NCBI GenBank assembly: GCA_015063535.1
Contig: SVTY01000014.1
Coordinates: 1 to 42,741, forward strand
From: Oscillospiraceae bacterium
GTDB lineage: Bacteria > Bacillota > Clostridia > Oscillospirales > CAG-272
Reading direction: 5' to 3'
DNA: 42,741 bases
The notes beneath the pieces were generated by a model, which was given only the letters and a program-made list of their open reading frames with translations, was not told where the DNA came from and did not search any database. This document shows positions 15,387-34,318 of this stretch, in pieces; positions within the stretch are counted from its first letter, which is position 1, and each line of letters starts with the position of its first letter. The position numbers were made by a program, and so were the translations under genes.

Positions 15387-16673
15387 TCATTTTTTTAATT
15401 TGTTTAACCTATCTTTGTAATCTTTCATGGTTACAACGGTACCTAACAATCTTGATTCCTCAGCCGCAAAAGCGGTAAGATGGTTATCGATAGATGTTGA
15501 TATATCCGTAATGGAATTACCGCTATATGTTCCGACAAGAAATTGACAAAAAGAACGTATAATGCCCCTGTCACCGCCGCCGTGACCACCCGATATTTCT
15601 TCGTCCTGAATAGCATCAGCAATCATTATTTTCTCTGTTTCTCTTGTTTCGAAATCAAAAACGGTAATATGATCTGATCTCATTTCGGCTGTTATCTCGC
15701 CCTTAGTACCCATTATGCGGATCTTTCGTCCGCCTTTGTTAAATGCGCTCATAGTGAAGGAAACTGTCGCACCCGAGGCATACTCAAGGTTTACGATCTG
15801 ATGGTCTACCACGTCATTGTCGCATCTGAATACGCATTTTCCGTAATCAGTCTCGGTAATTGCCTTCCATATATCCTCGTCGGTTGGATTGTGCTTTTTG
15901 GTAGCGGTGCCGACAAAGGGTGGAAAAGTACGTTGCTGATATATTTTCAGAGCACTATATGGGCAATCCTTTTCGGCGGGGCACCCCTGATAGCAATATT
16001 CGGGAGCACCCTCGGGCATATTTTCTTTACGGAAGTATGTAAGAGAACCGAAGCTCTGAACTCTTGTGCATTCCTCGTCCAAAAGCCACTGAAGGATGTC
16101 GATGTCGTGACAGCTCTTTGCGAGTATCATAGGCGAGCTGTCCGCAGCCTTGTGCCAGTTTCCGCGCACGTAGCTGTGACTTTGGTGTACGTTTCCGACA
16201 CACTCAATGTGTATCATATTCATAACCTTACCGATACGTCCGCTGTCTATGGTATTCTTCAAAAGACGGAAGAAGGGTGTAAATCTCAGAACGTGGCAGA
16301 CGATAACGTGAACGCCCTTTGCGTTAGCCGCCTCGGCTATTGCAAGACACTCCTCGGGTGTAGGTGCGGCAGGCTTTTCAAGGAGCAGGTGATATCCCTT
16401 CTCAATTGCCGCCAAAGCTAAATGATAATGCTGCTTGTCCTGTGTTGCAATAATTACGGCATCAGCCATTTTGGGGAGCTTCAGCAGATTTTCTCCATGC
16501 TCAAAGCACATATTCTCAGAAAGTCCAAACTTATCTTGTATATAATTTCGTCTTGTTGGATCGATATCTGCAACAGCAACAATCTCCATCTCGGGGCAAA
16601 ACTCTGCCCCGAGATCAACATAAGATGTGCCTCTGTCCCCAGCTCCGATAAGTATAAGTTTTACTTTTTTCAT
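15387..16673 (-). CDS. Gfo/Idh/MocA-family oxidoreductase
   Basis: A 428-aa NAD(P)-dependent sugar or inositol oxidoreductase. The Rossmann domain opens with LILIGAGDRGTSYVDLG, followed by VAVADIDPTRR, DAVIIATQDKQHYHLALAAIEKGYHLLLEKPAAPTPEE (the EKP signature with the catalytic-region lysine) and VCHVLRFTPFF. The C-terminal alpha/beta domain starts near residue 135 and carries SHDIDILQWLL. An insert at about residues 225-245 holds four cysteines (YCYQGCPAEKDCPYSA), a pattern found in a subgroup that also sits beside glycosidases. ATG at 16673 with AAGAGGA upstream. It follows the GH2 gene after 54 nt on the same strand, so it probably processes the sugar released by it. Confidence 0.9.
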   Translation of the reverse strand: MKKVKLILIGAGDRGTSYVDLGAEFCPEMEIVAVADIDPTRRNYIQDKFGLSENMCFEHGENLLKLPKMADAVIIATQDKQHYHLALAAIEKGYHLLLEKPAAPTPEECLAIAEAANAKGVHVIVCHVLRFTPFFRLLKNTIDSGRIGKVMNMIHIECVGNVHQSHSYVRGNWHKAADSSPMILAKSCHDIDILQWLLDEECTRVQSFGSLTYFRKENMPEGAPEYCYQGCPAEKDCPYSALKIYQQRTFPPFVGTATKKHNPTDEDIWKAITETDYGKCVFRCDNDVVDHQIVNLEYASGATVSFTMSAFNKGGRKIRIMGTKGEITAEMRSDHITVFDFETRETEKIMIADAIQDEEISGGHGGGDRGIIRSFCQFLVGTYSGNSITDISTSIDNHLTAFAAEESRLLGTVVTMKDYKDRLNKLKK

Positions 16674-16727
16674 ATTATATATCCTCTTTTTCGATTTTTT
16701 ATTGAATCGCTCATCGACAATATACTA

Positions 16728-18896
16728 TTAAAAATTAAGAACTCTGCGCTTTGTCACCTTGGGCTTCTCATAATAAACCAATCTGTATTCGCTTCCCTTG
16801 CCGTCGGGAGACGTAAGGGTAAGCGTCATTTCGGTCTCTCCGATAGCATCGGGGAGTACACAGCAGACCTGAGCCCCCTGAAGATTTTCTCCTGCGGGAG
16901 TGGATACATTCTTCCAATCAAGGAGCGAGAATGTATGCTCACCTACCCTAAGGCTTACACTTACCTCTCCGGAAGCCGCTTCGGGGCTGTCGTTCAGAAA
17001 CCATATCTCAGCCTTGAATACCTCTCCGGCCTTCCAGTCGAACTTGGGAATACGTGCACTAAAAAGAACGGGTCTGAGGGCCTCCTTAATGGCGTAATAT
17101 GCAGGCTTGGGATTTGCGGGATACATAATTACCGAAAGATTTGCCGCAGTTTTCCAAGGTTCGTTAAAACACCAGTTAAGAGCCGCAGAACAATGTGGCT
17201 CTTGCTTTCTCATTTCCTCATAGCACGCCTTATATCCCTCGCATTGCAGGAAATTTGAGCGGTCGATAAGCTGACCAAGACTTTCGGATGGTCCAAAATA
17301 GCTCTCTATTATCGGTACGCATGCGTGAGACTGTGGTCTCCATGCTTTTACGGCGTGATGTAGCAGATAAGACTTGGTCTCGCCTATTGGGAATAGCTCG
17401 TCCTCGGGAATGATGGAGCGAAGAACCTCCTCGCTTGAAATAGATGGGACCCCGAACTCGGTATAGGCTACGCAGTTTGCCTGTTGGAAGCTTTTGTAAA
17501 CGTCTCCGCCCATTATTCCGGCACGATCTCCCCTACTGTCTGCAAAAATGTAACAGCCATGACCCATCCCCACAAGAGGAGAGGTTTTTATAAAGGGCTT
17601 GCCATAGTCAAGTTCATAACAAAGCTTATCAAGAAGACGAAGGGGGAGAGACTGATCGTCCATTCCCGACCAACCGTTGAACAGCTCATTTCCTCCGCAC
17701 CAGAGAATCAGGCAGGGATACCGGCGGTGGTCGGTGATGATAGCTCTCGCCTCTTTTTCCAAAACCGTCAGGTAGTCTGCATCGTCGGGGTAGCGGTTGC
17801 AGGCAAGCATAAATTCCTGCCATACCATAATTCCATATTTATCGCAAAGTTCATAAAAATCACGCTTTGCAACAGCAGCACCGCCCCACATACGGAGGAT
17901 ATTCATATTGGCATCACGGACAAGGGTCAAAAGACTATCATAAGTGTCTCTGTTGATGTCACCCCAGAATATGTCGGGGTTTACCCAGTTAGAACCCTTC
18001 ATAAATACCCGTCTGCCGTTGAGCATCAAGGTAAAAGGTGCATCGTAGCGAGATTTTGGAAAAAGCGAGGGGTCGATGGCGTTAAAATTGCGGACTATAC
18101 GCACGCTACGGAAGCCCACGGTACCGAATACCGAATATTCCGAGTTACTTGCCTTGTAAGTATAGAGGTAGGGATCACCCTGACCGTTACACCACCAAAG
18201 GATAGGGTTATTCACGGTGAAGCTTGTGTCCGAGCCACTGTAAACGATATTACCGTCAGCATCGAAGAGTTCAAAGGAGCAGGAAAGATCACAGTCGATA
18301 GATACCGTTACGTCAGCGACTGAAAAATCCTCGGAGAGCGTGTAGAACACCTCGCAGTTTCTTATATATGCGGAGGTTCTCGTTTCGATATACGCCTCCT
18401 GCCAGAGCCCCGAAATAAGTAGACGGGGGTTCCAGTCCCAGCCGTAGCAAACAGGAGGCTTGCAGGAATGATCGGCTTCAAGGATTGAACCAACGGGCGA
18501 GCCCGCTCTCTTGGGATGGGGGTATATTTTCACTGATAGCTCGTTGCCGCTCTCTAAAAGAGCATCTGTAAGGTCAAGCTCTATTTTGTGAAACATCCCC
18601 TCATCGGAGTGAATGACCTTTTCGTTTAATGATATATCGTATTTATAATCTATGCCTTGGCTCACAAAGAAAACTCGCTCACCCTCGTTTGCCGTATAGT
18701 CAAGGTGAGCTCTGTATTCCCAGAAATCGTCCTCAAGCTCACGGAATTTTTCACAGTTTTCGGCGTAATGAACGTCCCCAAAGTTGTGAGAGCGCGCCCA
18801 GTCCTTTTGAATGTTTCCGGGGACCGAAGCGGGAAATGGGTCGCTGTATACTCCATTTTGTATGCGGTAGCCCTGCCATTTTTGATTAAATATCAT
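16728..18896 (-). CDS. GH2 beta-mannosidase-like glycosidase
   Basis: A 722-aa glycoside hydrolase family 2 enzyme without signal peptide, hence cytosolic. The sugar-binding jelly-roll (residues 1-160, with PASVPGNIQKDW and DDFWEYRAHL) and an Ig-like domain lead into the TIM barrel, where MLNGRRVFMKGSNWVNPD, NMNILRMWGGAAVAKRDFYELCDKYGIMVWQEFM, the acid/base Glu in LWCGGNELF (near residue 402) and the nucleophile Glu in YTEFGVPS (near 480) are visible. The KGSNWVPxD and WxGNNE/WCGGNE style point to beta-mannosidase or exo-beta-glucosaminidase rather than beta-galactosidase. ATG at 18896 behind AAAGGAG. The last 335 bp are duplicated at 42109-42443. Confidence 0.88.
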   Translation of the reverse strand: MIFNQKWQGYRIQNGVYSDPFPASVPGNIQKDWARSHNFGDVHYAENCEKFRELEDDFWEYRAHLDYTANEGERVFFVSQGIDYKYDISLNEKVIHSDEGMFHKIELDLTDALLESGNELSVKIYPHPKRAGSPVGSILEADHSCKPPVCYGWDWNPRLLISGLWQEAYIETRTSAYIRNCEVFYTLSEDFSVADVTVSIDCDLSCSFELFDADGNIVYSGSDTSFTVNNPILWWCNGQGDPYLYTYKASNSEYSVFGTVGFRSVRIVRNFNAIDPSLFPKSRYDAPFTLMLNGRRVFMKGSNWVNPDIFWGDINRDTYDSLLTLVRDANMNILRMWGGAAVAKRDFYELCDKYGIMVWQEFMLACNRYPDDADYLTVLEKEARAIITDHRRYPCLILWCGGNELFNGWSGMDDQSLPLRLLDKLCYELDYGKPFIKTSPLVGMGHGCYIFADSRGDRAGIMGGDVYKSFQQANCVAYTEFGVPSISSEEVLRSIIPEDELFPIGETKSYLLHHAVKAWRPQSHACVPIIESYFGPSESLGQLIDRSNFLQCEGYKACYEEMRKQEPHCSAALNWCFNEPWKTAANLSVIMYPANPKPAYYAIKEALRPVLFSARIPKFDWKAGEVFKAEIWFLNDSPEAASGEVSVSLRVGEHTFSLLDWKNVSTPAGENLQGAQVCCVLPDAIGETEMTLTLTSPDGKGSEYRLVYYEKPKVTKRRVLNF

Positions 18897-18936
18897 AGTA
18901 ATGACTCCTTTTAAGTGAAAACTATATTTTTGTTAC

Positions 18937-18967
18937 ACACAGCGGGGCATTAGATGCCCCGCTGTGT
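18937..18967. terminator. Perfect 14-bp hairpin between two cluster genes
   Basis: ACACAGCGGGGCAT (18937-18950), TAG, ATGCCCCGCTGTGT (18954-18967). It lies 8 bp past the stop of the beta-helix protein gene. Neither side has a proper T run, so it may be an mRNA-stabilising or processing hairpin inside the operon rather than a full stop. Confidence 0.55.
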
Positions 18968-18975
18968 CAAATTAT

Positions 18976-21555
18976 TTACGCTTCTGCGACCCATGCAGAG
19001 GGCGTGATCGTTTTCACGATACTACCCTCAACCACGGAGCCGTCTGTCAGCGTCCAAACGGTGGAAACGGAAAGTGTATAGGTCTGCTCGGAATCCAGAC
19101 CGTCAAGGATGAACGCATACATCTTGTTGCCTGTGCCATCCAAAACGTCTTCATTGAAGTCATCAGCCGTCAGCACTGCTCCACCTGCGTTGATGGTATT
19201 ATACACCACCTTGGCAGTCTCGTAATCCGTTGCGCCGTAGCCGTACGTCGTGGAAACGCCCTCGGAATCCGTCAAGGTAACCTTGAAGTCCACACTCTTG
19301 TAATCCAATGAAGCGACCTCACCGATCACACGCACCGAGTACTTCCCTTCATTGGCAACTGTTGCCTGACAGTAATATTTGGTCAACATATCAGCAACTG
19401 CCACGGGCATCACGCCCTCGGTAGTCTCAATGAATCTGCCCACACAGTCTTCGGCGATCGACTGGGTCTTGCCGTTACCAAAGTTATAGCAACGAGTCTG
19501 ACTGCCGGAGAACGTCGAAGTTGATGTCTGCACGCTGTACGTGCCGAGCACGATGCAATCGGTCATTTGGATGGTATAGCGTCCGCCGTTTTGGTTCGTT
19601 CTCCACAAACAAGAGAAAATACCGTCGAGGTCATACTTTTTTGTTTCGGAATCGGTCATGGATTCAAAATGTCCGGCAAACACCACGTTGTCGTAAACGA
19701 CCGTCATGGCTCCTGCCAAATTATTTTCATTCCACCAGCTACCGGCAACGCCAGCCACGCTTCCGCCCGTTTTTGCCGAACCGTCAACCGTATAGTTCTT
19801 TCCAAAATAGATGTTTTGCATTGTATAGGTGTCGCCGTCTGCGCGAAGCTTGATGCAACCTGTCAGTCCCGCAACGCCTTTGTCGTTCGTACTTTTTACA
19901 TAACCGTTATCCAAAATAACATTTTTGATAGCGTTGGTTCCCGTTTTGCTGGCGGGATAGTTTTGACCGCCCAAAACGCCCCAGTCGGTCGTCTGCGAGG
20001 ATTTTCCGTCGGATGCGGCAGGCGTGTAGACACCGCTGATGGTGTGTCCCTGTCCGTCGATCGTACCGTAGAATTTATCCAAGGACAACCATATATTCGC
20101 AGGAAGCGTGCCCGTATATTCGACACCGTTGAGCATGAATGCCCGATACGCCGCCCAATCCACGCCGGGGTTCAGGTCAATATCCGCCGTCAGAACAAAG
20201 GTCTTGTTGTCAGTCCACTCCATATCCTTGTTGTTGTTCTCCATGGCCAAAGACAAGCCAAGAAGCTGCTCTGCGGTAGCAATCTCGTACACATCAGCCT
20301 CAGCATTGGCAATAAACTGTCCGTTCGTTGCGTCCGTCCAGTATGCCTCTGCAACTACAACGTCGATCTTTTTTGCGACTACAGTTTGTTGATACGTCAA
20401 TCCAAACTTGTCGGCAACTGCCTTGGGCACAACACCTTCGGACGATCGTACCCATTCGTTTGCCGCACTACCGGGAACCGATTGTACAGCACCGTTTCCG
20501 AAGTCGTAGCAATCGATAGCGGTAAATTTGTTCGTATTGTTGCCCTTATTTGCCTTAAATGTGCCGGCAGCAGTCGATCCGTCCACTTGTGTGTCAGTAT
20601 AGGTGCCCAAGACCACACAATCGGTCATCAACGTGTAGTTACAGATTTTCTTGGTGTCATACAGCCAGTTGGCATAGATCTGACCCATGATACAACCGTC
20701 ATACTGCACGGTTTTTGATCCAACGAACGTACCGGCAAAGACAACATTGTTTAAGACAACATCAAGTGCAAGATCATCGCTGGCTCCGGCATAGTTCTTA
20801 GAAAGAGCGCAGCCGATCACGCCGCCACAAGCATTCGTTGCTCTCATATTCGAAGCATCTACAACAAAATTCTTTCCAATGTAAACCGTGTCGATCAAAA
20901 CACCGTCTTCTCTTGTAGTCTTATCATCGGTAGCACCGATATTTTCAGCAGCACCGAAGATACCACCAAATTGATCCATTTCTGACGAATTCTGAACATA
21001 TCCGTTATCCAACTTCACGTTCTTTACAGCCGTTCCGGTGGTAGCTTTGCCGCCAAAGACGCCCCAGAGTTTTCCGGCATCATTACCTGCTCCCGCCTGT
21101 GCGCCGAGCGCCCAAACACCGCTGATGGTCTTGCCGTTTCCGTCAAAGATGCCATAGAAGTAGTCCAAGGACTTCCATTCGTTGACGGGAGCGGTACCGG
21201 TATATTCGGTGCCGTTCAGCTTTGCTGCCTTGTAAGCCGCCCAGTCCACACCGGGATTCAGGTCGATGTCTGCTGTCAGCTTAAAGGTCTTACCTTGTGT
21301 CCAAGTTTTGTCGTTTGCATTGTTCTCCATGGCGAGAGACAAGCCGAGAAGCTGCTCTGCGGTGGAAATTTCATACACCTCAGCATCTGCATTTACAATA
21401 AACTGTCCGTTCGTCGCATCCGTCCAGTATGCCTCTGCTGCTGCCGTGTCGATGGCAGTGGGAACCGTTGCTCCTCCGTCAGCATATACACTCAGAGGCA
21501 GTGCGACGCTCAGAAGCATACACAGAATAAGTGCCAAAGAAACAATCTTTTTCAT
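18976..21555 (-). CDS. Secreted protein with two GLUG-like beta-helix modules
   Basis: An 859-aa exported protein. A cleavable signal peptide (MKKIVSLALILCMLLSVALPLSVYA) is followed by two homologous modules, about residues 40-390 and 400-730. Each starts AEAYWTDATNGQFI, then STAEQLLGLSLAMENN, TFxLTADIDLNPGVDWAAY, FYGxxDGxGxTISGV and a run of glycine- and hydrophobic-rich strands, as in GLUG-motif right-handed beta-helices of surface adhesins. The C-terminal 125 residues form a beta-sandwich-like domain (YSVRVIGEVASLDYKSVDFKVT...TYTLSVSTVWTLTDGS) shared with two other proteins here. No LPXTG, SLH or dockerin is seen, so anchoring is unclear. ATG at 21555; a promoter-like site lies at 21583-21611. 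Confidence 0.8.
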   Translation of the reverse strand: MKKIVSLALILCMLLSVALPLSVYADGGATVPTAIDTAAAEAYWTDATNGQFIVNADAEVYEISTAEQLLGLSLAMENNANDKTWTQGKTFKLTADIDLNPGVDWAAYKAAKLNGTEYTGTAPVNEWKSLDYFYGIFDGNGKTISGVWALGAQAGAGNDAGKLWGVFGGKATTGTAVKNVKLDNGYVQNSSEMDQFGGIFGAAENIGATDDKTTREDGVLIDTVYIGKNFVVDASNMRATNACGGVIGCALSKNYAGASDDLALDVVLNNVVFAGTFVGSKTVQYDGCIMGQIYANWLYDTKKICNYTLMTDCVVLGTYTDTQVDGSTAAGTFKANKGNNTNKFTAIDCYDFGNGAVQSVPGSAANEWVRSSEGVVPKAVADKFGLTYQQTVVAKKIDVVVAEAYWTDATNGQFIANAEADVYEIATAEQLLGLSLAMENNNKDMEWTDNKTFVLTADIDLNPGVDWAAYRAFMLNGVEYTGTLPANIWLSLDKFYGTIDGQGHTISGVYTPAASDGKSSQTTDWGVLGGQNYPASKTGTNAIKNVILDNGYVKSTNDKGVAGLTGCIKLRADGDTYTMQNIYFGKNYTVDGSAKTGGSVAGVAGSWWNENNLAGAMTVVYDNVVFAGHFESMTDSETKKYDLDGIFSCLWRTNQNGGRYTIQMTDCIVLGTYSVQTSTSTFSGSQTRCYNFGNGKTQSIAEDCVGRFIETTEGVMPVAVADMLTKYYCQATVANEGKYSVRVIGEVASLDYKSVDFKVTLTDSEGVSTTYGYGATDYETAKVVYNTINAGGAVLTADDFNEDVLDGTGNKMYAFILDGLDSEQTYTLSVSTVWTLTDGSVVEGSIVKTITPSAWVAEA
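20151..21443 (-). repeat. Tandem copies of the YWTDATNGQF/STAEQLLGL coding module
   Basis: About 207-212 bp at 20151-20362 and 21237-21443 are near copies. Further copies lie in the other surface genes at about 24964-25169 and 31591-31797. DNA similarity is high in the block coding TAEQLLGLSLAMEN and lower beyond it. The copies show recent duplication or gene conversion between these genes. Confidence 0.75.
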
Positions 21556-21582
21556 TGTTATTCCAACCTTTCTTTTGATTTC

Positions 21583-21611: not shown

Positions 21612-21668
21612 CGGTAGGTCCAAAGTCATTCCGATCAAAACTCGGTCACAGGACCAAAATCATTGCGA
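21601..21668 (-). repeat. Tandem copies of the DRNDFGPxxEF tail-coding unit
   Basis: The 1483-aa protein ends YRNDFGPVTEF with its stop at 21635-21637. Overlapping this stop, the +1 frame reads DRNDFGPTVEF and stops at 21601-21603. A third copy ends the linker lipoprotein at 26128 (DDRNDFGPTTEF). The second copy has no start codon of its own and its frame is closed just upstream. Confidence 0.75.
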
Positions 21669-24600
21669 TAGTCTTCTCTAACGGGAATTTCATGCTGTTT
21701 TGCCTTGATCTCCTCATAGATTGCCTCGTAGTCGGGCAAGCGCTCGGCTCTCGGCGTATACGGCAAAATAAACTCTTGAGTTCCCGTTCCCTCGGCATTA
21801 ATGATGATCGTTTTGACATACTCTGCTTCATAGGCTATGTAGTGATTAACCTCATAGAAGTACGCCCAATCCACTTGGGTAATCAACCGATGGAAGATAT
21901 TTTCCCCTTCGGCACCCTCCTGCCACGAATAGATCGCATTGGGCCACATGACCGTAGGTGCCTCAATGAGGTCGTACAGTTCTTTTTCGGGACCATCCCA
22001 GCCGTGGTGCGCATACTGTACGATATCGCTCTTCATCTCGGACTTAGGCATGGTATCAAGCATAACTTGACCGCCCTCCACCATAACATCTCCAAGGAAC
22101 ATGATCCGCTGACCGCCAAAGGTAAGGCGCAAAACGGTTGTTGCTTCATTGAGAGAATCCTCACCGGTTACAACGGGATACAGATCCTCATGCGTGTACA
22201 TCACATCAAAGCGAGCATCCGCTACGTAGAAGGTCATACCCGTGTGCAATTTACGGTAGATCGTAGCGCCGCTGTACTGCTTCATCAAAGAAATCATGTT
22301 TGCATCACCGGTTCCCCCTTCTGCCATACCAAATCCGTTTGCGGGGAAATTGTGGTAAAATGCTTTGACAACGACTTCATCCTTGTAACGACTCGTGAAC
22401 TGCTGGAAGCCTCCCGTATGATCGGCATGATTGTGAGAAAAGAACCATGCGGAGATCACGGGCTTTTCCTCTCCGGAATGTCGCTTCAAATGCTCGTAGA
22501 TGATCTCTCCCTGCCGCTTCGAGTTCATGCCACTGTCGATGATGACAAAGCTGCCGTCCGCCACACGAAGGATATAGCACATACCCGCATTGGAGCCCTT
22601 GAAGCCTTCAGGCGCTGAGGTATCCCATTCCACTGCCGTTTTCCAGTCGCACTCGACCTGCCACAGCGTTGGCTGATAGCCTTCGACGGTTTCATACGTT
22701 GTAGGAGTAGCCGATGGATACAGAGTGCCCTTCTCCTTGTTCTCTACGAACAAACGAACCATCTCCTTACCCGGAACGTAGTACGCATAAGCATTGGCAA
22801 GAGTACTTTCGAGAAGCATATAGCGATTCTCACCCAAGGTGTAGGTCTGCTTCTCGGCAAAACCGCTATTCTTCAAAGTCGAAAGATAGGCATCATAGTT
22901 ACTCTCGGTTACGTTCTCCCAAACAAACACAATAGAATCATCTCCCACATCATCAGCACCGAGGTAAGAGCCTTGCGCCATTTTGGGAACGCTTGCCATC
23001 CAATCATATGCCTTAAACTGTACGCTATAACCGTTTGGCAACATATACTTTCCGTCATACGTTCCCTTCACTACTTCGGTCAAGTCATTGAAGAAAGCAA
23101 TCATTGCTTCATCCAAGCTTGTTGTGATATCGGCTCCGATCGCAAGCCTATTGCCCTCTACCTTCCACCGAATATCACTCAGCCCCATAGCATTATACAG
23201 GTTTGTGCTTTCGGTATAGTTTGTCTTTCCGACAAGCAGAGCATTTTCTTTCTGCCCCCACAAGCTTAGGATTGGATCGGATGAAGGATCATTCACCGTG
23301 CAATTCAAGAGCGAGGCGATCGCCGCCTTCAACTGCTCTGCCATTTCTTTTTCATAGTTGGCATTCGCTCTGGGATAAACGATGTCATATTTGAATGTTC
23401 CGTTATTCACCAAAGCGAACATATCGCCTGAACCGTCGTACGTGACGTTCAATGCCCCGTTAACGATTGCACGCTGATTCGGGAAGAGCAATCGACTCTC
23501 CAAATCACTTACTGCTTTTTCAAGCATAAAGTCATTCGAAGCTACCACAACGAGCTTTTCATCGCTGAATGTGATAGAATACCCCGTCTTATTCAAGCTC
23601 GCAAGAGCGGTCTGTGTCTGCGGTCGATTCGAAACACTCAGCAAGATTTCCTTTTCAGTCACAGGAGTCTTTGCGGTGTTGTCGGTCACTCGGTCGAGCT
23701 TCACCTGCGTTTTTTCCTCAATACTGTTCACCAAATCACTCGCTAACTGCTTTACGGCATTGGTTGCCGTTTGACCGATAACCACCTTGTAGCCATCTGC
23801 CAGGTTGATACCATCCACCTCAATCCAAGCTTCGGGGGTTACGGTCTTTACCGCCCCTCCTTTGATCACCGTACCGTCAAGCAATGTCCAAACCGTGCTC
23901 ACATCGATGGTATAAGTCTCATCGACAACCAAATCATTCAGCGTCAAAACATATAGCTTATTGGTCTCGCCGTCAAGGAATCCTTGGTTCAAAGCAGAGG
24001 CGCTCACCGATATGCCATTTGCCATTACGGAGTTGAACACGGTCTCGGCATTGGTATAGCCATCAACCCCGTATCCCCAAACGGCACTGGTTCCGTCCGC
24101 TTTGGTGATCTTCACCGCAAAGTCAACGCTGTCATACGCCATCGAAGCAACCTCTCCGACAATACGAATCGAATATTTACCTGATTCGTCGGCAGTTGTC
24201 GATTGATATGCATACTGCATCAGCATATCGGCAACAGACACGGGCATGATGCCCTCGGAGGTCTCAATATACTTTCCCTCCAAGCCTTCGGGGATCGCCT
24301 GCTCCTTGCCGTTGGCGAAATCGTAGCAGTTTGTCTGCGTTCCGCCAAACATAGCGGCATTCAGAGTTCCACCGTACGTGCCCGTAACGATACAATCCGT
24401 CATGGTGACGACATAGCCGTTCAAATTCCAATCGCCGGTAAAGATTCCGTCTTTCCAGGAATGTTCCGAGGTTTGCAAATGTCCGCCAAACACAAGGTTG
24501 TCATAGAAAACTGTGATTTTATTGCTATCATACCATCCGCAAACGAAAGCACCGATCTGCGCTCCGCTTGCTTTTGCCGAAGCATCCACCGTATAGTTTT

Positions 24601-26086: not shown

Positions 26087-26127
26087 ATGTTTCATCCTTT
26101 TCGATTGTGTAAAATGCATCACGCACA

Positions 26128-26487
26128 TCAGAATTCAGTGGTCGGGCCAAAATCGTTGCGGTCGTCATCCTTATTTTCCATCTCATCGGACGGCTGGGGG
26201 GTTCCGCCTCCGCTTCCGCCCTCGTTACCGCTTCCGCCCTCGTTACCGCTTCCGCCCTCGTTGCCGCTTCCGCCCTCGTTGCCGCTTCCGCCGATATTAC
26301 CGGGAGCCTGTGTCTCCTCTTCGGTCTCGGATTCGGTTTCGGTTACGAGCGTCGTCTCGGTAGCCGCCTTAGTAGCTTCTGCTTCCGAATCGTTTGTGTC
26401 GGTCGTGTCCTTGCTACATGCCACTGAAAAAACAGCTATGCCAAGAATCAATATCAACGCCAGAAGTAATGCAAAATATTTTTTCAT
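26128..26487 (-). CDS. Linker lipoprotein with GGSGNE repeats and shared C-terminal tail
   Basis: A 119-aa lipoprotein: signal peptide with lipobox FSVAC (Cys24), then a Thr/Glu-rich disordered stretch (residues 27-60), four GGSGNE hexapeptides plus GGSGG, and a short acidic end DDDRNDFGPTTEF. There is no folded domain. The tail is nearly identical to the end of the 1483-aa protein encoded next, 41 bp downstream. The design is a flexible tether on the membrane presenting a short peptide. ATG at 26487 has AAGGAG 8 nt upstream; ATG at 26493 is too close to it. No homologue recognised. Confidence 0.75.
   Translation of the reverse strand: MKKYFALLLALILILGIAVFSVACSKDTTDTNDSEAEATKAATETTLVTETESETEEETQAPGNIGGSGNEGGSGNEGGSGNEGGSGNEGGSGGGTPQPSDEMENKDDDRNDFGPTTEF
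26210..26292 (-). repeat. 18-bp tandem repeats coding GGSGNE
   Basis: Four 18-bp units (from 26210, 26228, 26246, 26264) and a partial fifth, almost identical at DNA level, with T to G change only in the last base between pairs. Copy number is likely to vary by slippage in steps of six residues without loss of frame. Confidence 0.85.
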
Positions 26488-26515
26488 AATCATTCTCCTT
26501 TTTGATTGAAATGTA

Positions 26516-27895
26516 TTATTCCACAGCACCTTTGCGATTTCCCATGCTCTCCTCTACCGCCTTAATTGCCTCGTAGATTCCATCATAATCGGGTAACCGA
26601 TAAGGTCTGGGGGTGTACGGCAAAGAAAGCTTGGTCGTTCCCTCACCGTTGATGATGATTGTTTTCACATAGGGCGCTTCAAATGCCATATAGCTATTGG
26701 TCGAATGGCTGGGTTTGGTGAGACGCTTGATCACGTTTCCGCCGAACCAATCATACTGCCAGGAATAGAAGCAATTCGTCCACAACGCAGTGGGTGCTGC
26801 GATCAGATCGTACAATTCCCGTGTACCGCCCTCCCAACCATGGTGTGCCATCTGCACAATGTCGCTTTTCAGCTCGGAAGCATCGATCTGCTTTTCTATG
26901 ATCCGACTTCCCTCCTCCTCCACATCTCCGAGAAGCATGATTCTCTGTCCGCCGTGTGTGATTCGGGTCACCATCGTATTATTGTTAGCATCACCGGCAA
27001 TATCGCAAAGAGGTCGTTGACCGCCCCATCTGCCACATTGCTCGGTGATCTCCACCTCGGCAAAATAGCGATCCATATACGAATAGATGACGTCAAGCTG
27101 CGCATCGGCAATGTAATACCGCATGCCCGCCTGCATGTTTTTGTAAACAACAGCATCGGGAAAAAACGGGGTAATATCATTCTCCTCAAATGTCGCACGT
27201 CCTGTAAAGTTGAAATAAAATGCCTTTACGGTCACCTCGTCGGCATATCGGCGAACGAACTTGCGGTAGCCTCCTGTATGGTCGCCATGGGCGTGGGTAA
27301 ACAGCCACGCAGAAATCACGGGCTTTTCGTGGGGCGAATTTTTCTTCAAAAAATGGTAAAGAATATCCGCCTGTCCGTCCGAATGCACTCCGCCGTCGAT
27401 CAGAATAAAGCTACCGTCCGCAACCTGCAACGCATCCAGCTGCCCTGCCATAGCACCGCGCCTTCCCTCGGGACGTTCCAAACGGAATTCCTCAGCATGA
27501 CGGTGGTCAATGTTCAACTGCCAGAATGCAGGCTCGTAGCCCTTCACCGTCTTGTACGGCTTCTGTTCTGCCGACGGATACTTCGATACTCCCTTCGGCT
27601 CGGCATAAACACGGATCGTGCCCATCGGAGCGATATAGGAAACATAGACTGTCTTTTCCCCACTCTCCATCAATGCATATCGGTTGTTACCAAGCGCATA
27701 CTCGGAAACGGTGTCAAAGCCGTTCTCGGTCAGCTGTGTCACATAGGCGGCAAAGTCCTCTGCCGTCACTTTTTCGCACAGCGAGATCGTCGAGCCCTCG
27801 ATCGTCGCAGGAAGGGTGCGAGCCCCTCCTGCAACGGTCGGCATAGGCACGCCATTCTGCCCAACATTCTTGCAAATGCTTGTATTGTGTTCCAT
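26516..27895 (-). CDS. MBL-fold hydrolase without signal peptide
   Basis: A 459-aa paralogue of the C-terminal half of the two exported MBL proteins. Residues 1-150 match their pre-MBL domain (ENGFDTVSEYALGNNRYALMES, KTVKGYEPAFWQL), and the MBL domain follows with SFILIDGGVHSDGQ, THAHGDHTGG near residue 200, MLLGDVEEEG and AHHGWEGGT; metal ligands are complete. The end YTPRPYRLPDYDGIYEAIKAVEE is the same as in the paralogues. The N-terminus (MEHNTSICKNVGQNG...) has no signal peptide, and the ATG at 27895 is supported by AGGAGA at 6 nt. So it should act in the cytosol, or it lost its exported N-terminus by recombination. It starts 10 bp after the lipoprotein MBL gene. Confidence 0.82.
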   Translation of the reverse strand: MEHNTSICKNVGQNGVPMPTVAGGARTLPATIEGSTISLCEKVTAEDFAAYVTQLTENGFDTVSEYALGNNRYALMESGEKTVYVSYIAPMGTIRVYAEPKGVSKYPSAEQKPYKTVKGYEPAFWQLNIDHRHAEEFRLERPEGRRGAMAGQLDALQVADGSFILIDGGVHSDGQADILYHFLKKNSPHEKPVISAWLFTHAHGDHTGGYRKFVRRYADEVTVKAFYFNFTGRATFEENDITPFFPDAVVYKNMQAGMRYYIADAQLDVIYSYMDRYFAEVEITEQCGRWGGQRPLCDIAGDANNNTMVTRITHGGQRIMLLGDVEEEGSRIIEKQIDASELKSDIVQMAHHGWEGGTRELYDLIAAPTALWTNCFYSWQYDWFGGNVIKRLTKPSHSTNSYMAFEAPYVKTIIINGEGTTKLSLPYTPRPYRLPDYDGIYEAIKAVEESMGNRKGAVE

Positions 27896-27905: not shown

Positions 27906-30143
27906 CTATTCTTCCCCCGGGTTCTGTTTCAGGGCATCCTCTGCTGCCTTGATCTCCTCATAAATTGCCTCGTAGTCGGGCAGTCGCTCGGCTCTGGGCG
28001 TATACGGCAGAATGAATTCCTGCGTTCCTGTTCCCTCAGCATTCACGATGATGGTCTTGACGTACTCTGCCTCGTGAGCAATGTAGTAGTTCACAGCATA
28101 GAAATAGGTAGCATTCTTTGTGTTGATGAGTCGGTTAAAGATATTCTCCTCCTCAGCATCCTCCTGCCACGAATAGATGGCGTTGGGCCACATCACCGTA
28201 GGCGCTTCGATGAGATCATACAGATTTCGATTCGGGCCGTCCCAGCCGTGGTGCGAATACTGCACGATGTCGCTCTTCATTTCGGATTTCGGCATCGTCT
28301 TGACCATAATATCACCGCCGAGGTCCTGCACGTCGCCAAGGAACATAATACGCTGACCGCCAAATGTCAGGCGAAGCACCGTGGAGGTCTCATTGAAATC
28401 CTCCCACGGCGTGGGATACAGATCCTCGTGCGTGTACATCACGTCAAAGCGAGCATCCGCCACGTAGAAGGTCATACCCGTGTGAAGCTTGCTGTACTTT
28501 GTCGCATTGGGATACTGATTTGGCAGTGCAAAATCAGAGCGGAAGTTATGGTAGAACGCCTTGACATCCACCTGATCCTTATACAGCTTGGTAATCTGTT
28601 CCAAACCGCCCGTGTGGTCAGCGTGAGCATGGGAGTGAAACCACATCGAAATCACGGGCTTCTGTCCCTCCGGCGTATGCTCTTTCAGATGTTTCATAAT
28701 GATCTCTGCCTGTGCCTTGGAGTTCATGCCGCTATCGATGATGACAAAGCTGCCGTCTGCCACACGCAGAATATAGCACATACCCGCATTGGCGCCCTTG
28801 AAGCCCTCAGGGGCTGAGGTATCCCATTCCACTGCCGTTTTCCAGTCGCAGGCAACCTGCCACATAGTCGGCTGATAGCCGTCTACCGTCGTATAGGTAG
28901 CTTGGGTAGCGGAGGGGTACGCCGTTCCCTTCGCCTTGTCCTCAACGAACAAACGGAGCATTTCCCGTTCGGGAACATAATACGCATAGGCATTGGCAAG
29001 GTTGTCTTCAAGAAGCACATAGCGATTCTCGCCCAAGGCATAGGTCTGCTTTTCGGCAAAGCCATTGTTCTTCAAGGTAGTGCAGTACGCATTGTAATCG
29101 CTCTCGGTCACGTCCTCCCAAACGAACACCATGGATCCGTCTTGCATCGCATCAACGCCCATGTAAGTGCCCGCATCAAGCATGGAAACGTTCTCCATCC
29201 ACTCGTAGGATGTATTTGTCAGATTGAATCCGTTATCCAGCATCTGCTTGCCGTCATACACACCCTTGGCAGACTCCGAAAGGTAAGAGTAGAATGTTGA
29301 AATTGCATCGTCCAATGCCGAGCCGATGCCTGCGCCGACCACGAGCTTATTGCCGTCGAGCACCGCCTTGGTCTCGCTCAGGCCCATACCCTCGTACAGC
29401 TTTTGGCTCTGCGGACGGTTGGTCTTGCCGAGCAACAGCTCAAAGGAAGCATCGTCAACGGGGATACTCAGGTCGGTGCGGATCAAGCTCACCTTACAGC
29501 CGAGCGATTTTTGCAGATCAAGCCGTAGCTTGTCGGCAAGATCGCGCTCCCCGTTGGTATTGGCATCGGGATAAATGATCTGATATTTGAAATTGCCGTT
29601 CTCATCCACCAAAGCGGACATATCGGCAGAACCGTCATAAATCGTATTTACATTTTTGGCAATTGCGGCACTCTTTCCCTCAAATTTCAGCAAAGAGTTT
29701 TTCAGCTCCGCCGCCGCCTTTTCGAGCATAAAGTCATTCGTTGCGACCACTACCAGTTTCTCGCCGCTGAACGAGATCGAATATCCCGTCGTCGTCAGCG
29801 CCGCCAAAGCGGTCGTTGTCGCCTCACGCTTCGAAACGCCAAACAGGATCTCCTTTGTGCTCGCCTTATTTTTCTTGGTGTTGTCGCTCACACGGTTGAG
29901 CTTCACCTCGGTCTTTTCCTCAATGGCGTTCACCAGCTCGTTCGAGAGCCGCTTGACAGCATTCGTTGCCGTCTCGCTGATCACGACCGTGTATCCGTCG
30001 GCAAGGTTGACCATTTCTATGGGGGTCTCGCCGCTATCGGACGGAGCCCCTGTCGTTTCGTCAGTCGTACCGTCCTTCTTGACGCATGCGGCAAATGACA
30101 AAAGCATCACCGCCGCCAATAGCAAACATAAAATTTTCTTCAT
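27906..30143 (-). CDS. Surface lipoprotein with MBL-fold hydrolase domain
   Basis: A 745-aa lipoprotein (lipobox SFAAC, Cys20; Ser/Thr linker to about residue 40). Two alpha/beta domains follow: LADGYTVVISETATNAVKRLSNELVNAIEEKT with EILFGVSKR (about 42-165), and YQIIYPDANTNGERDLADKL with ELLLGKTNRPQS (about 185-300), both like the non-catalytic GH20b/GH67N domains of glycosidases. After a linker domain the MBL domain carries MCYILRVADGSFVIIDSG, HSHAHADHTGG near residue 507, MFLGDVQDLGG and SHHGWDGP. The ligand set is complete. This protein equals the C-terminal half of the 1483-aa protein, including AEGTGTQEFILPYTPRAERLPDYEAIYEEIKA. ATG at 30143. It would sit on the outer face of the membrane. 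Confidence 0.85.
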   Translation of the reverse strand: MKKILCLLLAAVMLLSFAACVKKDGTTDETTGAPSDSGETPIEMVNLADGYTVVISETATNAVKRLSNELVNAIEEKTEVKLNRVSDNTKKNKASTKEILFGVSKREATTTALAALTTTGYSISFSGEKLVVVATNDFMLEKAAAELKNSLLKFEGKSAAIAKNVNTIYDGSADMSALVDENGNFKYQIIYPDANTNGERDLADKLRLDLQKSLGCKVSLIRTDLSIPVDDASFELLLGKTNRPQSQKLYEGMGLSETKAVLDGNKLVVGAGIGSALDDAISTFYSYLSESAKGVYDGKQMLDNGFNLTNTSYEWMENVSMLDAGTYMGVDAMQDGSMVFVWEDVTESDYNAYCTTLKNNGFAEKQTYALGENRYVLLEDNLANAYAYYVPEREMLRLFVEDKAKGTAYPSATQATYTTVDGYQPTMWQVACDWKTAVEWDTSAPEGFKGANAGMCYILRVADGSFVIIDSGMNSKAQAEIIMKHLKEHTPEGQKPVISMWFHSHAHADHTGGLEQITKLYKDQVDVKAFYHNFRSDFALPNQYPNATKYSKLHTGMTFYVADARFDVMYTHEDLYPTPWEDFNETSTVLRLTFGGQRIMFLGDVQDLGGDIMVKTMPKSEMKSDIVQYSHHGWDGPNRNLYDLIEAPTVMWPNAIYSWQEDAEEENIFNRLINTKNATYFYAVNYYIAHEAEYVKTIIVNAEGTGTQEFILPYTPRAERLPDYEAIYEEIKAAEDALKQNPGEE

Positions 30144-30160
30144 TGGTTTTTACCCTTTCT

Positions 30161-30192
30161 AAAACACAGCGGAGCGCCGAAGCGCCCCGCTG
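30161..30192 (-). terminator. Hairpin after the 49-aa peptide gene
   Basis: CAGCGGAGCGC (30167-30177) pairs with GCGCCCCGCTG (30182-30192) with one mismatch; on the minus strand it is followed by TGTTTTAG. It lies between the small peptide and the lipoprotein gene and may reduce read-through into the latter. Confidence 0.55.
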
Positions 30193-30217
30193 CCTTTTCC
30201 CTTTTTCGGGGACGTTA

Positions 30218-30367: not shown

Positions 30368-30384
30368 GTTCATTTCCCCCTTTC

Positions 30385-32679
30385 TTATGCCTCTACCCAA
30401 GCGGCAGGTGTTACAGTCTTGACCGATACACCCTCGACAGTCGTGCCGTCAAGCAGTGTCCATACGGTCGTTACGGACAGCGTGTAGGTCTCGTCGGTAT
30501 CCAGTCCGTTGAGGGTCATGACGTAGAGCTTGTTGTTCTCCCCGTTCAGGAAGTCGTTCATGGTTGCGGCGGTCTTTTCCTCGCCGTTTGCCATCACGGA
30601 AGCATAGACCTTCTCGGCATTCTCGTAGCCCTCGACATTGTGGCCCCAAACGGCAGATTTACCATCGGAGGCACGGGTGATGGTGACCTTGAAGTCAACA
30701 CTCTCGTAAGCCATCGAAGCGACCTCACCGATCAGACGGATCGAGTACGTACCGTTGTCTGCCTTGGTTGCCTGATAAGCGTAATTGCTCATCATGTCGG
30801 CAACTGCTACGGGCATAACGCCCTCGGCAGTATTGATGTACTTACCTGCAAGCTCTTCGGGAATCGACTGCTCTGCACCGTTTCCGAAGTCGTAGCAGTC
30901 GGTTTTCTCACCCTCACTGCCAAATTCCGAATATCTCTTTTCTCCCAGTGCGCCCAAATCGGTATTGGTGCCTTCATAAGTGCCGGTAATCAAGCAATCC
31001 GTCAGATTGAGATTTACTTTGTAGGTGGTTCTGAAATAATACGTCGTCTGTCCCAAGAAAGCGCCGGCATAATAGTTAGCGCCCGTGAAATGTCCTGCAA
31101 ATACCACGTTGCGGAACGTCAGGTCAAGCAAACCAACGTCGCCCGTATTGGCATGAGCAGTTCTGTCGCCTGATGCCATAATTCCACCGGCTTGCTTCGA
31201 TGTGTTTTTGCTTGCATCAACGGTGAAGTTTTCGCCTACGTAAATATTTTCCAACAGAACGCCGTCATCCACAGTTGTTGTGTCATTCGTTCCCAACGAA
31301 TGATAGAAGTTTCCGATAATACCGCCGAAGCAGCCGCTTCCGGAAGAAGAAACGTAACCGTTATCCAGTACTACGTTTTTGATAGCGGTACCGCGATAAA
31401 CCCATCCACCGAACACACCCCAGTTTGCAGTGGCGCTTGCCGTACCGTTGGGTGCATCAATCGCCCAAACACCGCTGATGGTGTGTCCTTGTCCGTCAAA
31501 CACACCGTAGAAAGCGTCGAACGACAGCCACTTGTTATAGTTGAGGGAGGTCACATCTGTTTTTCCTTCTGCCACTGCGGTTTTGTACGCCGCCCAGTCT
31601 ACACCGGGGTTGAGGTCGATGTCAGCCGTCAGCTTAAAGGTCTTGCCTTCTGTCCAAGTATTGTCATTTGCATTGTTCTCCATGGCGAGAGACAAGCCAA
31701 GAAGCTGCTCTGCGGTGGAAATCTCATACTCGGTTGCAGTTGCATTCTTAACAAACTGTCCGTTCGTTTCGTCCGTCCAATATGCCTCTGCCTTCGCCGT
31801 ATCGATCTTGTTGAAAGCCTCTGCCTTCAAGGTAATGGGGTCGAAGCCGGTAAACTCGCCGCTATTCATACTGGTATTACCTTGCAGGTGTGAACCACCG
31901 TTTGCGCCCATGCCCAGTTTGACGCCCAACGCATCGACGATATCGGTCGTCGTATTGGCATTAGGAGCAGACATACCCAGATAATCCCAAGAAATACTGG
32001 TCTCCATTACGTACGCACTACCACCGGTCTTACCAAAAACAGCATTTACGCCGTCGATGTTCGAAGAGATTGTGCCGTAACCACCGCCCGATACCGCTCC
32101 CGGCCAGGAGGAATAGGTTGCATATCTTTCGGTGATTAGCGCAGAACAAGTATCGCCCGCATTCAGCGTCACGCCATCTGCTCCCGAAGAAGTTTCCCAA
32201 ATAAACATACCGTAAACCTTACAAGTGTTCAAACTAAACGTTCTGGTCGGCAACACGTAAATAGCGGTACCCCACGAGTTCCACGGTCTGTCTTTACCGC
32301 TTGCTTGTACGCCCGCGTAGGTTTGAACCTTGGTCCACCAGTTTCTCTGAACTTCCATGATATAGAGGTTGTTTTCATCCCACAAAAGATAGAATTCACC
32401 ATTGTAGGCAGAAGAGATTCCACAATTATCAATCAAAGCTTTGGTAGTAGAATTCATCGTCAAAGGAAGCGCATTGCTCCAATCCTCGCCGTCTGTCCAC
32501 TTACCGTCAATGGTAGGCGTTCCGGGATAGGCATCCAGTCCCGTATTTGACTGCTTGTAGAAGAAACGACTGGTTTTGCCATCCGAACCATCGGTTGAAT
32601 ATGCCGCCGAAACGCTCAAAGGCAATGCGATGCTCAACAGCATGCACACAATGAGCGCCAAAGAAATAATCTTTTTCAT
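30385..32679 (-). CDS. Secreted CBM9-like/beta-helix surface protein
   Basis: A 764-aa exported protein: signal peptide (MKKIISLALIVCMLLSIALPLSVSA), CBM9-like domain of about residues 30-285 (GLDAYPGTPTIDGKWTDGEDWSNALPL, FYLLWDENNLYIMEVQ, YVMETSISWDYLGM), one GLUG-like beta-helix module (about 290-635) and the shared C-terminal beta-sandwich (YSIRLIGEVASMAYESVDFKVT...TYTLSVTTVWTLLDGT). The signal peptide and domain order are the same as the N-terminal half of the 1483-aa protein. CBM9-like domains bind reducing ends of plant polysaccharides in characterised members, so glycan binding is the likely role. No wall-anchor motif. ATG at 32679 behind GAAAGG with a long spacer (12 nt). It follows the solute-binding protein gene after 82 bp. 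Confidence 0.82.
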   Translation of the reverse strand: MKKIISLALIVCMLLSIALPLSVSAAYSTDGSDGKTSRFFYKQSNTGLDAYPGTPTIDGKWTDGEDWSNALPLTMNSTTKALIDNCGISSAYNGEFYLLWDENNLYIMEVQRNWWTKVQTYAGVQASGKDRPWNSWGTAIYVLPTRTFSLNTCKVYGMFIWETSSGADGVTLNAGDTCSALITERYATYSSWPGAVSGGGYGTISSNIDGVNAVFGKTGGSAYVMETSISWDYLGMSAPNANTTTDIVDALGVKLGMGANGGSHLQGNTSMNSGEFTGFDPITLKAEAFNKIDTAKAEAYWTDETNGQFVKNATATEYEISTAEQLLGLSLAMENNANDNTWTEGKTFKLTADIDLNPGVDWAAYKTAVAEGKTDVTSLNYNKWLSFDAFYGVFDGQGHTISGVWAIDAPNGTASATANWGVFGGWVYRGTAIKNVVLDNGYVSSSGSGCFGGIIGNFYHSLGTNDTTTVDDGVLLENIYVGENFTVDASKNTSKQAGGIMASGDRTAHANTGDVGLLDLTFRNVVFAGHFTGANYYAGAFLGQTTYYFRTTYKVNLNLTDCLITGTYEGTNTDLGALGEKRYSEFGSEGEKTDCYDFGNGAEQSIPEELAGKYINTAEGVMPVAVADMMSNYAYQATKADNGTYSIRLIGEVASMAYESVDFKVTITRASDGKSAVWGHNVEGYENAEKVYASVMANGEEKTAATMNDFLNGENNKLYVMTLNGLDTDETYTLSVTTVWTLLDGTTVEGVSVKTVTPAAWVEA

Positions 32680-32761
32680 TGTTGTTTTTACCTTTCTTTA
32701 TAATAATGTATTATTTTTCTCCGTCGGAGAAAGGGGAAAGGGATTTCGTCAAAGGTTGTTG

Positions 32762-34318
32762 TCAGGTTATGACGCCGTATGCCTTGTAAACCTTTGCCAG
32801 GTTAGCGGCATATTGCGGCTGACAGTTCGCATAATACGTACCGTATTTCGAGGTGCTTGCTCTGTTGGCAATGATCGTGTCGGTACAAGAGACGACGTGG
32901 GGAGTTCCCATAGCGGTGCCGTATGCCTCAAAGAAGGTAACCGTTGCCGTTGCACGGATCGTGTTCATCATATCGTTCAGATCCGCATCCGACAGATAAC
33001 GACCTGCCAGTACCGTGTCGAGATACGCAGGACGGATCTCCTGATAGCTGTACATGCAAAGTGCCTCGATGATGACAGCTGTCATCTCGGTGTTCTCGAC
33101 GTTTCTCGGAACGGTTACGCAGGATGCACCGCCGAAGATCGACGTGTGGTAATCCAACTGGTCGGTGTCATACTTGGGATAGGGCAGAATGCCGTACTCC
33201 ATACCGGTCGCCATCGATTCGGCAATATTCGTAATCTCCCCAAGACGTCCTATCATGAACAGCGCACGTCCCTCGGCAAAGACCGAATTCTTCGTGGCGT
33301 CCGTCGTGTCAAGCTCGGTGCTGTTCACCGCTTCACCCTTGAAGAATTCTCCCATCGAGTCGAGAATCGTTACCGTTCTCTCGGGGGAGTTCTGCGGGAA
33401 CGAATAAATGAGGTAGCCGTTCTTTTCCGCACTCTCGGCATAGTCCAGCTCAAACGCAGAACCGAATGCACGCACAGCACCTCTTGCCGAGATCAGCGTG
33501 AAGCGCTTGTCTGCTTCGGCAACGCCGACGTCGTTGATCAGCGTGCTGTAGGTCTTGAGCTTTTCCCACGTCCATTCGCCGTCCCGTACCATATCGTACA
33601 GGTCAACCGGCTCGCCTGCTTCGTCCTTTAAGACTTCAGCCGCCAGCGTTTCGTTGAGGAAGAATACGAAGAAATTTTCGTACATACTGTAATTGATGTC
33701 ACCGATAGCGACCCAGTACTTGCCTTTGATATTACACTGATTGTAATATTCCTCAGCCCACCATTCCTTCATCGGGTCGATCTCCTCCAGGGTGCTCAGA
33801 TCCATGCACCAGCCCTGCACCGATGCACACTGGGTGACATCGAAACGAGTCGTTGCCATTTGGTACTCCGACCAACCGGACTGTACCACCTTCTGGTACT
33901 TAGCGTACCAGGGGTTCTTGGTCATGTCATTATTTGTCGGCCACCAGGAACCGACCTCATCCCACGAAAGTTCCACATTGAAACGGCTCTTGACTTGCTC
34001 GTTTCTCGTGTAAACGGCATTGTTGACTGTCGCTTGCTTCGTGGCGTTGTCGGAATCCCACTCGTAAAGCGTGGGAGAACCTACCAGGATGTTGAATTTC
34101 GCCCCACCGAAATCATAGTCTCCCAAGGTGTCTGCATCGTTGAGCGTTTCCTCAGGCTCAACGTCAGGTGCATTTGTCTGTGCGCCCCCTGCCGCCTGCG
34201 TTTCCGCCGCTGTTGTTTCTGCGCTCTCGTCAGTGCTCTTCTTACAGCCTACCATCGCAGACAGGCAGAAGGTCGTCACCAACAGCACGCACAAAATGCT
34301 TTTGAAAATTCTGTTCAT
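32762..34318 (-). CDS. ABC-transporter extracellular solute-binding lipoprotein (family 1)
   Basis: A 518-aa substrate-binding lipoprotein, start ATG at 34318 (MNRIFKS) with AAAGGAG 7 nt upstream; the longer open frame to 34480 has no site and covers the promoter. Lipobox SAMVGC (Cys25), then a Thr/Ala-rich linker and the two-lobed binding domain with FNILVG, EWTWEKLKTYSTLI, EGRALFMIGRLGEI and MEYGILPYPKYD, typical of CUT1-type carbohydrate-binding proteins. No permease or ATPase gene is nearby. It is the first gene after the promoter at 34565-34593. A small TTTCTCC/GGAGAAA hairpin (32716-32732) lies between it and the next gene. Confidence 0.85.
   Translation of the reverse strand: MNRIFKSILCVLLVTTFCLSAMVGCKKSTDESAETTAAETQAAGGAQTNAPDVEPEETLNDADTLGDYDFGGAKFNILVGSPTLYEWDSDNATKQATVNNAVYTRNEQVKSRFNVELSWDEVGSWWPTNNDMTKNPWYAKYQKVVQSGWSEYQMATTRFDVTQCASVQGWCMDLSTLEEIDPMKEWWAEEYYNQCNIKGKYWVAIGDINYSMYENFFVFFLNETLAAEVLKDEAGEPVDLYDMVRDGEWTWEKLKTYSTLINDVGVAEADKRFTLISARGAVRAFGSAFELDYAESAEKNGYLIYSFPQNSPERTVTILDSMGEFFKGEAVNSTELDTTDATKNSVFAEGRALFMIGRLGEITNIAESMATGMEYGILPYPKYDTDQLDYHTSIFGGASCVTVPRNVENTEMTAVIIEALCMYSYQEIRPAYLDTVLAGRYLSDADLNDMMNTIRATATVTFFEAYGTAMGTPHVVSCTDTIIANRASTSKYGTYYANCQPQYAANLAKVYKAYGVIT

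Follow-up and report, generated by a model that had tools for sequence, protein, structure and literature searches.

The closest described relatives of the locus reported here are two extracellular domains of the metallo-beta-lactamase (MBL) fold. The Pce protein (CbpE) of Streptococcus pneumoniae (2bib, 1wra and 12qj) joins such a catalytic domain to a surface-binding module and carries choline-binding repeats; the bond that it cuts is a phosphodiester, and to our knowledge it has neither a sugar-binding partner nor a cytosolic twin. It has been named teichoic acid phosphorylcholine esterase (PMC5031224, PMC2916828). The C-terminal MBL domain of ComEC (9ic4 and 9vc9), which belongs to a DNA channel, is described as an Mn-dependent phosphodiesterase and nuclease (PMC8579336), and a conserved Asp replaces the second His of its first metal motif (HxDxDH; His87 in Pce; PMC5031224). 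Here, we analysed a 42,741-nucleotide stretch of DNA from an Oscillospiraceae bacterium (hereafter the window; contig SVTY01000014.1, GC 50%), which is contig C5 of the genome bin G000 (1.67 Mb, 22 contigs, 84% complete). A cluster of nine closely spaced minus-strand genes at 15387-34480, checked by translation, encodes three MBL-fold proteins, a sugar-binding lipoprotein and module-sharing secreted proteins. This cluster belongs to a lineage-restricted expansion. We give an even chance to the reading that its enzymes are surface phosphodiesterases acting on a phosphate-bearing glycan, the imported fragments of which are cut by a leaderless twin.

The central product is a 745-amino-acid (aa) lipoprotein (27906..30143), a putative exported enzyme according to its translation, Pfam matches, alignment, model and Foldseek search. 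We named its parts NDOM (a tandem alpha/beta domain; 29193..29993, from Foldseek), XDOM (about 80 residues preceding the MBL domain) and MBL (the catalytic domain); XDOM and MBL together occupy 27924..29159, as judged from motifs and profile matches. The next gene begins 10 bp behind it with its own Shine-Dalgarno-like site and encodes a 459-aa leaderless XDOM-MBL protein (26516..27895; translation and tree), a putative cytosolic twin, which resembles the last two domains of the 745-aa protein (44% identity). The third enzyme is a 1497-aa secreted fusion (21635..26128) of a CBM9-like domain, a beta-helix-like domain, a C-terminal domain (CTD), NDOM (22997..23791, by domain comparison), XDOM and MBL (21680..22960, by motifs). 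In pairwise comparison, this fusion consists of a part like the 764-aa secreted protein of the same cluster (30385..32679; CBM9-like, beta-helix-like and CTD, from translation, Pfam and pairwise comparison; 53% identity), followed by a part like the body of the 745-aa protein (63%). The CBM9 match is below the Pfam cut-off (E 0.02). Against their relatives, the two halves of the fusion gave dN/dS values of 0.25/1.55 and 0.38/3.4, with dS near or at saturation; since dN lies well below dS in both, the copies are maintained. Leader peptides, read by eye rather than with a predictor, are present on the 745-aa protein, with a lipobox Cys, and on the 1497-aa protein, while the 459-aa protein has none. 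A script rule also flagged a lipobox in the 1497-aa and 764-aa proteins; we overruled it, because the Cys sits within the hydrophobic stretch.

The metal-binding motifs are complete in all three enzymes: HAHADH/GDV/HHGW in the 745-aa, HNHADH/GDV/HHGW in the 1497-aa and HAHGDH/GDV/HHGW in the 459-aa protein. All three reach the curated Pfam cut-off of Lactamase_B, and 34 of 35 aligned domains from the window and its relatives match that model at E<=0.01. The residues H505, H507, D509, H510, D604, H631 and H632 of the 745-aa protein are invariant across an eight-row alignment (A3), and among 124 deduplicated domains the HxHxDH motif is found in 124 and the HH motif in 121. A profile built from the 35 domains matches ComEC at 1.6e-10 and Pce at 4e-10 to 6e-9. 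The former match extends across the entire MBL domain in the case of Pce (profile positions 108-342), with HxHxDH, D and HH aligned, while the two strongest ComEC matches cover 80 and 150 positions. The family therefore has a Pce-type first motif, in view of the Asp in ComEC. AlphaFold2, supplied with an eight-row alignment of the window and L051-L054 proteins, gave a model with pLDDT 83 and pTM 0.73 (a single-sequence model was poor, pLDDT 36). With the eight-row model, the top match in a Foldseek search of the PDB was the MBL domain of ComEC (E 2.4e-10), ahead of Pce (1.3e-9 and 2.1e-9). Both nearest characterised relatives thus break phosphodiesters, in the case of Pce as its name and its function imply. 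In the three window proteins, ComEC models match just the MBL part, below cut-off, and no competence channel domain was found; nor was any Pfam match to choline-binding repeats up to E 1, NDOM and XDOM being present instead. Foldseek also matches GH20, GH67, GH84 and GH115 chains, in a listing that carries no residue ranges, and we take these to correspond to the NDOM part of the model. Unlike the GH20b/GH67N-type N-terminal domains of glycoside hydrolases, NDOM is a tandem and is fused mainly to MBL or EEP domains rather than to a TIM-barrel glycosidase. The original prediction, made from the window alone, had counted ten close-order minus-strand genes, one too many; its complete metal ligands in three proteins, signal peptides on two of these, modules reused in new orders and GH20b/GH67N-like tandem all agree with what we find.

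How widely is this architecture distributed? Of 30 genomes in the window's genus, its own included, 28 match the XDOM-MBL profile at E<=1e-3, with 248 matches in total. The number of places per genome reaches 22 in G009 and G018 and 20 in G010, compared with five in the window's own genome and one match or two weak ones in four others; the value for G018 is somewhat high owing to apparent assembly duplicates (C52/C92 and C12/C76 score equal). The thresholds were stricter in the wider searches. In a sample of 147 genomes of the order, own genome included, 44 match at E<=1e-20, mostly in one to three places; apart from the own genome, the exceptions are G174 with 13 places and four genomes with 4 to 7. 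In 299 genomes sampled from the phylum, with at most six candidates scored per genome, the sole match at E<=1e-40 is the window's own. Named relatives amount to four loci, all from two Clostridia metagenome-assembled genomes of roe-deer colon, RGIG4259 and RGIG4231. The viral contigs searched hold no relative of the 745-aa protein, and a plasmid search with it yielded one distant match, in Halococcus. G174, from another family of the order, has a separate MBL expansion (contigs C2, C10, C18, C29, C30 and C42), in which 11 of the 13 places match MBL but not the XDOM-containing beginning of the profile.

Next, we investigated the gene neighbourhoods. The window cluster contains a MalE-like sugar-binding lipoprotein gene (32762..34480; its likely start is 34318, a later ATG inside the frame), identified by translation and by a profile of 26 (maltose-binding proteins, E 3e-7), with no ABC permease alongside. 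We surveyed 81 loci (1.3 Mb, 23 genomes), calling genes as the longest non-overlapping frames, for which reason L070 and L111 show no MBL gene despite profile matches. The survey covers 122 MBL genes, 120 of them from the genus; five lack XDOM and may be other MBLs. A same-strand sugar-binding gene lies at most three genes away from 47 of the 122, and sugar-binding genes make up 40 of 434 non-MBL genes at distances of one to three, as against 2 of 519 farther off. The MBL genes with such a neighbour number 14/19 in G018, 12/17 in G009, 5/8 in G017, 3/5 in G000, 3/8 in G005, 3/3 in G015, 2/9 in G010, 2/5 in G021 and one each in G011, G022 and G029. The other 12 of the 23 genomes have none (G001, G002, G004, G006, G007, G008, G012, G013, G016, G024, G027 and G035). 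The link between MBL and sugar-binding genes is therefore confined to part of the genomes. Where present, it exceeds the background: 8 of 10 sugar-binding genes in G000 lie at most 5 kb from an MBL or EEP gene against a background of 11%, and 17 of 21 in G018 against 13.5% (binomial P 8e-7 and 6e-12, independence assumed; the G018 count took in 19 of its 22 MBL matches).

The binding proteins appear as orphans in the two genomes searched for permeases. In G000, the nine permease matches (on C4, C14 and C17) each lie more than 60 kb from the nearest of the 10 binding-protein genes; in G018, with 11 permease matches, the shortest distance to a match is 8.6 kb, for one of the 21 binding-protein genes. 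Gram-positive ABC-type polysaccharide utilisation loci resemble the present loci in their AraC regulators, glycosidases and MalE-like solute-binding lipoprotein. They differ in that the window genome has no permease beside the binding protein, and in that here MBL or EEP is the recurring enzyme and surface and cytosolic enzymes form twins. A Pfam tally of the other close neighbours covered 95 of the 194 without a module match and found 16 AraC regulators, five rhamnosidases and three GH43 proteins. The original prediction had named conserved co-occurrence with CBM9-like and beta-helix genes as support. Co-occurrence was indeed found, with the sugar-binding lipoprotein as the partner; we rejected the CBM9-like domain as the defining link, as it occurs in three proteins only in the 81 loci. 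Non-MBL beta-helix/CTD proteins occur in 24 of the 81. The same prediction's broader proposal, a glycan-dependent surface hydrolase system with phosphodiesters among the guessed bonds, is borne out in part, in that MBL-fold enzymes are combined with carbohydrate-type partner domains. The genus-wide expansion, an EEP counterpart on the same N-terminal domain and the leaderless twins go beyond it.

NDOM is also fused to EEP domains, which have a phosphodiesterase fold. Among 154 deduplicated NDOM proteins from 141 loci, 78 carry MBL, 43 EEP, one alkaline phosphatase and 32 other partners; these shares are not unbiased, since the loci were picked around MBL, NDOM and EEP matches. An NDOM-like protein with an alkaline phosphatase domain is encoded at L114:15580-17067. 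The 32 comprise four GDSL-type and two sialidase-like proteins, single GDPD, calcineurin-type phosphoesterase, GH43, pectate-lyase-like, DUF4838 and DUF4886 proteins and a few more, where one protein may be counted under several Pfam names; of ten scanned singly, seven had no Pfam match. A GH67N Pfam match is weak in one NDOM-EEP protein (E 0.008) and stronger in another NDOM protein (4.5e-10). The EEP genes in the loci number 77 (75 distinct, with two repeats), and 40 of the 77 have a sugar-binding gene within three genes. Within the genus, EEP matches reach 32 in G009, 18 in G000, 14 in G018 and 10 in G017. In a sample of 58 other genomes of the order, 57 have 0-4, and G053 has 13. The window's own genome holds three successive NDOM-EEP genes at a contig end (G000:C7:125224-130242). 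In G053, of another family, the 13 matches form a separate EEP expansion (contigs C6, C15, C29 and C30), where some frames encode two or three consecutive EEP domains.

The leaderless MBL proteins recur as well. By a home-made export rule, 90 of the 122 MBL genes look exported, 31 are leaderless and one is cut; NDOM is present in 76 exported and in one leaderless protein. In the leaderless frames, the first domain is preceded by a median of 47 residues, with no leader-like stretch by the same rule. Of 29 tandem same-strand MBL pairs, ten (in seven genomes) are exported-then-leaderless, 16 exported-exported and two leaderless-leaderless, and the single leaderless-then-exported pair consists of the window's 459-aa and 1497-aa genes. 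In the ten pairs, the leaderless frame starts within or at most 34 bases after the preceding frame in eight cases, and after 142 and 152 bases in two. A tree of 117 domains requires at least 22 switches of the exported or leaderless state, whether gains or losses, and starred branches force 18 of these; the mean after shuffling is 25 changes, so that the state is just slightly clustered. In eight of the ten pairs, the leaderless protein is closer to its exported neighbour than to any other of the 89 exported rows, and in the remaining two the neighbour ranks second and fourth. The summed pair distance is below each of 5000 draws of a same-genome exported partner, although two of the ten pairs, from genomes with a single exported row, contribute nothing to the draws. 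In view of this kinship in eight of ten pairs, leaderless twins seem to have arisen repeatedly. The repeated birth of a leaderless copy beside its exported parent agrees with selection for one chemistry outside and inside the membrane.

On this basis, we propose the following scheme, in which the locus is part of a lineage-specific set of metal-dependent surface hydrolases. Outside the cell, the lipid-anchored 745-aa enzyme, with NDOM serving for placement or substrate contact, followed by XDOM, and MBL for catalysis, would, like the secreted 1497-aa fusion, break a phosphodiester linkage of a glycan that bears phosphate, possibly a phosphopolysaccharide such as one resembling wall teichoic acid. 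Capture of the freed oligosaccharide would fall to the orphan MalE-like lipoprotein, and a shared permease would import the fragments. Inside the cell, the leaderless 459-aa twin would cut the same type of bond, and the products of the GH2 glycoside hydrolase gene (16728..18896; Pfam) and the Gfo/Idh/MocA oxidoreductase gene (15387..16673; Pfam and NCBIfam) may process the sugar. The phosphodiester chemistry is suggested by homology and the EEP parallel, and a glycan substrate by the binding protein and the glycosidases; we infer uptake and the order of the steps. Our guess at the substrate, prompted by Pce, the single NDOM-GDPD protein and the rhamnosidase neighbours, is a polymer of other bacteria, either wall teichoic acid or a phosphopolysaccharide rich in rhamnose. 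More tentatively, and with the balance of our judgement against it, we suggest a general type of glycan-acquisition locus: an orphan sugar-binding lipoprotein with MBL or EEP surface phosphodiesterases on a shared GH20b-like scaffold, leaderless twins evolving repeatedly so that the same bond is cut on both membrane sides, and phosphodiester cell-wall polymers of neighbouring microbes as the substrate. The individual domains are known. Among the titles and abstract openings listed in full-text searches of open-licence PMC papers, we found no description of such a system, whether of the combination, its lineage-specific scale or the twins, and we know of no carbohydrate-enzyme catalogue that lists these enzymes. 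If the scheme is true, the nutrition of this gut lineage is partly built on phosphate-linked glycans, and the surface-to-cytosol twinning predicts one common substrate per pair.

Several findings weigh against the phosphodiesterase reading. The HxHxDH motif is general among MBL hydrolases, and is stated for class B enzymes (PMC10340364). The carriers of NDOM are not confined to phosphoesterases, and the GDSL-type, sialidase-like, GH43 and pectate-lyase-like proteins among them lessen the weight of NDOM as an argument for phosphoester chemistry. Nor does the EEP expansion extend across the genus: of its ten genomes searched, five have low counts (six in G007, five in G011, three each in G008 and G010 and two in G013). 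No nearby sugar-binding gene was found for 75 of the 122 MBL genes, so that the outcome named in the original prediction as speaking against it, homologues standing mostly alone, is partly true; and the 8.6-kb case in G018 means that not every sugar-binding gene is far from a permease. As for the twins, exported-exported pairs outnumber exported-then-leaderless ones, the 459-aa protein ranks its exported neighbour fourth only, and gene conversion between neighbours could also preserve the likeness within pairs.

The strongest competing explanation, which we nonetheless consider unlikely, is that the MBL and EEP proteins are accessory de-esterifying enzymes, hydrolysing carboxyl esters or lactones (acyl, methyl or uronate esters) on plant polysaccharides. 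The GH78, GH43, GH92, GH2 and GDSL genes in the surroundings and the NDOM-GDSL fusions are consistent with this activity, and lactonases and thioesterases exist within the MBL superfamily. Against it, the closest solved relatives are Pce and ComEC, and the parallel EEP set has a phosphoesterase fold. It is improbable that the MBL proteins are extracellular nucleases of the ComEC C-terminal type, feeding on environmental DNA with the DNase I-fold EEP proteins as a second nuclease set. Such a function would suit the place of ComEC, an Mn-dependent nuclease (PMC8579336), among the best profile and fold matches, and one NDOM-EEP protein has weak exonuclease III matches below cut-off; the family, however, has HxHxDH in 124/124 domains, where ComEC has an Asp at the second His (PMC5031224). 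The MBL genes are accompanied by sugar-binding proteins, rhamnosidases and AraC regulators, and a leaderless nuclease in the cytosol would presumably endanger the cell. The domains are also acidic, with between -9.3 and 0 charges per 100 residues and a median of -4.5, a weak argument in the absence of a ComEC control; a 658-aa protein of the own genome (L124), considered for this role, carries HxHxDH and seems to be an MBL of the RNase J type, and is thus no control.

We see little probability, too, in the leaderless MBLs being by-products of tandem duplication that lost their 5' part and are kept without a function of their own. The commonness of tandem MBL pairs (29 in the loci) and the slight clustering on the tree (22 changes against 25) would be expected of by-products. 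In contrast, the frames are open, HxHxDH is intact, the branches are long, and the leaderless gene lies downstream in 10 of 11 mixed pairs. The EEP genes show a similar order: among 18 tandem EEP pairs, eight are exported-then-leaderless and two the reverse, with at least two of these leaderless calls doubtful (at least three EEP export calls are doubtful overall: L116, 645 aa; L134, 606 aa; L144, 497 aa). Finally, the proteins are hardly antibiotic-resistance beta-lactamases, as the NCBIfam class B models match the three window proteins only weakly and all far under the curated cut-offs (best 32.2 of 100 bits), Pce and ComEC match better and the multi-domain architecture is of the glycan type. 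If our scheme is true, it is also a warning that an MBL-fold gene in a gut metagenome is not necessarily related to antibiotics.

The cluster is completed by a gene for an 859-aa secreted protein (18976..21555; translation and pairwise comparison), in which the beta-helix-like part is present in two copies ahead of a CTD, and by a linker lipoprotein gene (26128..26529; translation). The C-terminal 12 residues of the linker lipoprotein and of the 1497-aa protein are near-identical (10/12; window 26128-26166 and 21635-21673), while the last 36 bases of the two genes, stop included, are just 69% identical. The peptide rather than the DNA therefore seems to be conserved, possibly as a docking tail; it is absent from the other frames of the window and from loci L031-L050. 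Outside the cluster, the window encodes a GH78, a GH5 and an esterase-like protein. In addition, positions 8221-9876 encode an apolipoprotein N-acyltransferase (Lnt) equivalog (264.2 bits against a cut-off of 132.9), although the named relatives of the bin within its genus belong to the Clostridia; this enzyme would permit triacylated lipoproteins. An RHS-repeat-associated core fragment lies at 40486-41433, and the gene after it, at 41449-41880, encodes a small lipoprotein.

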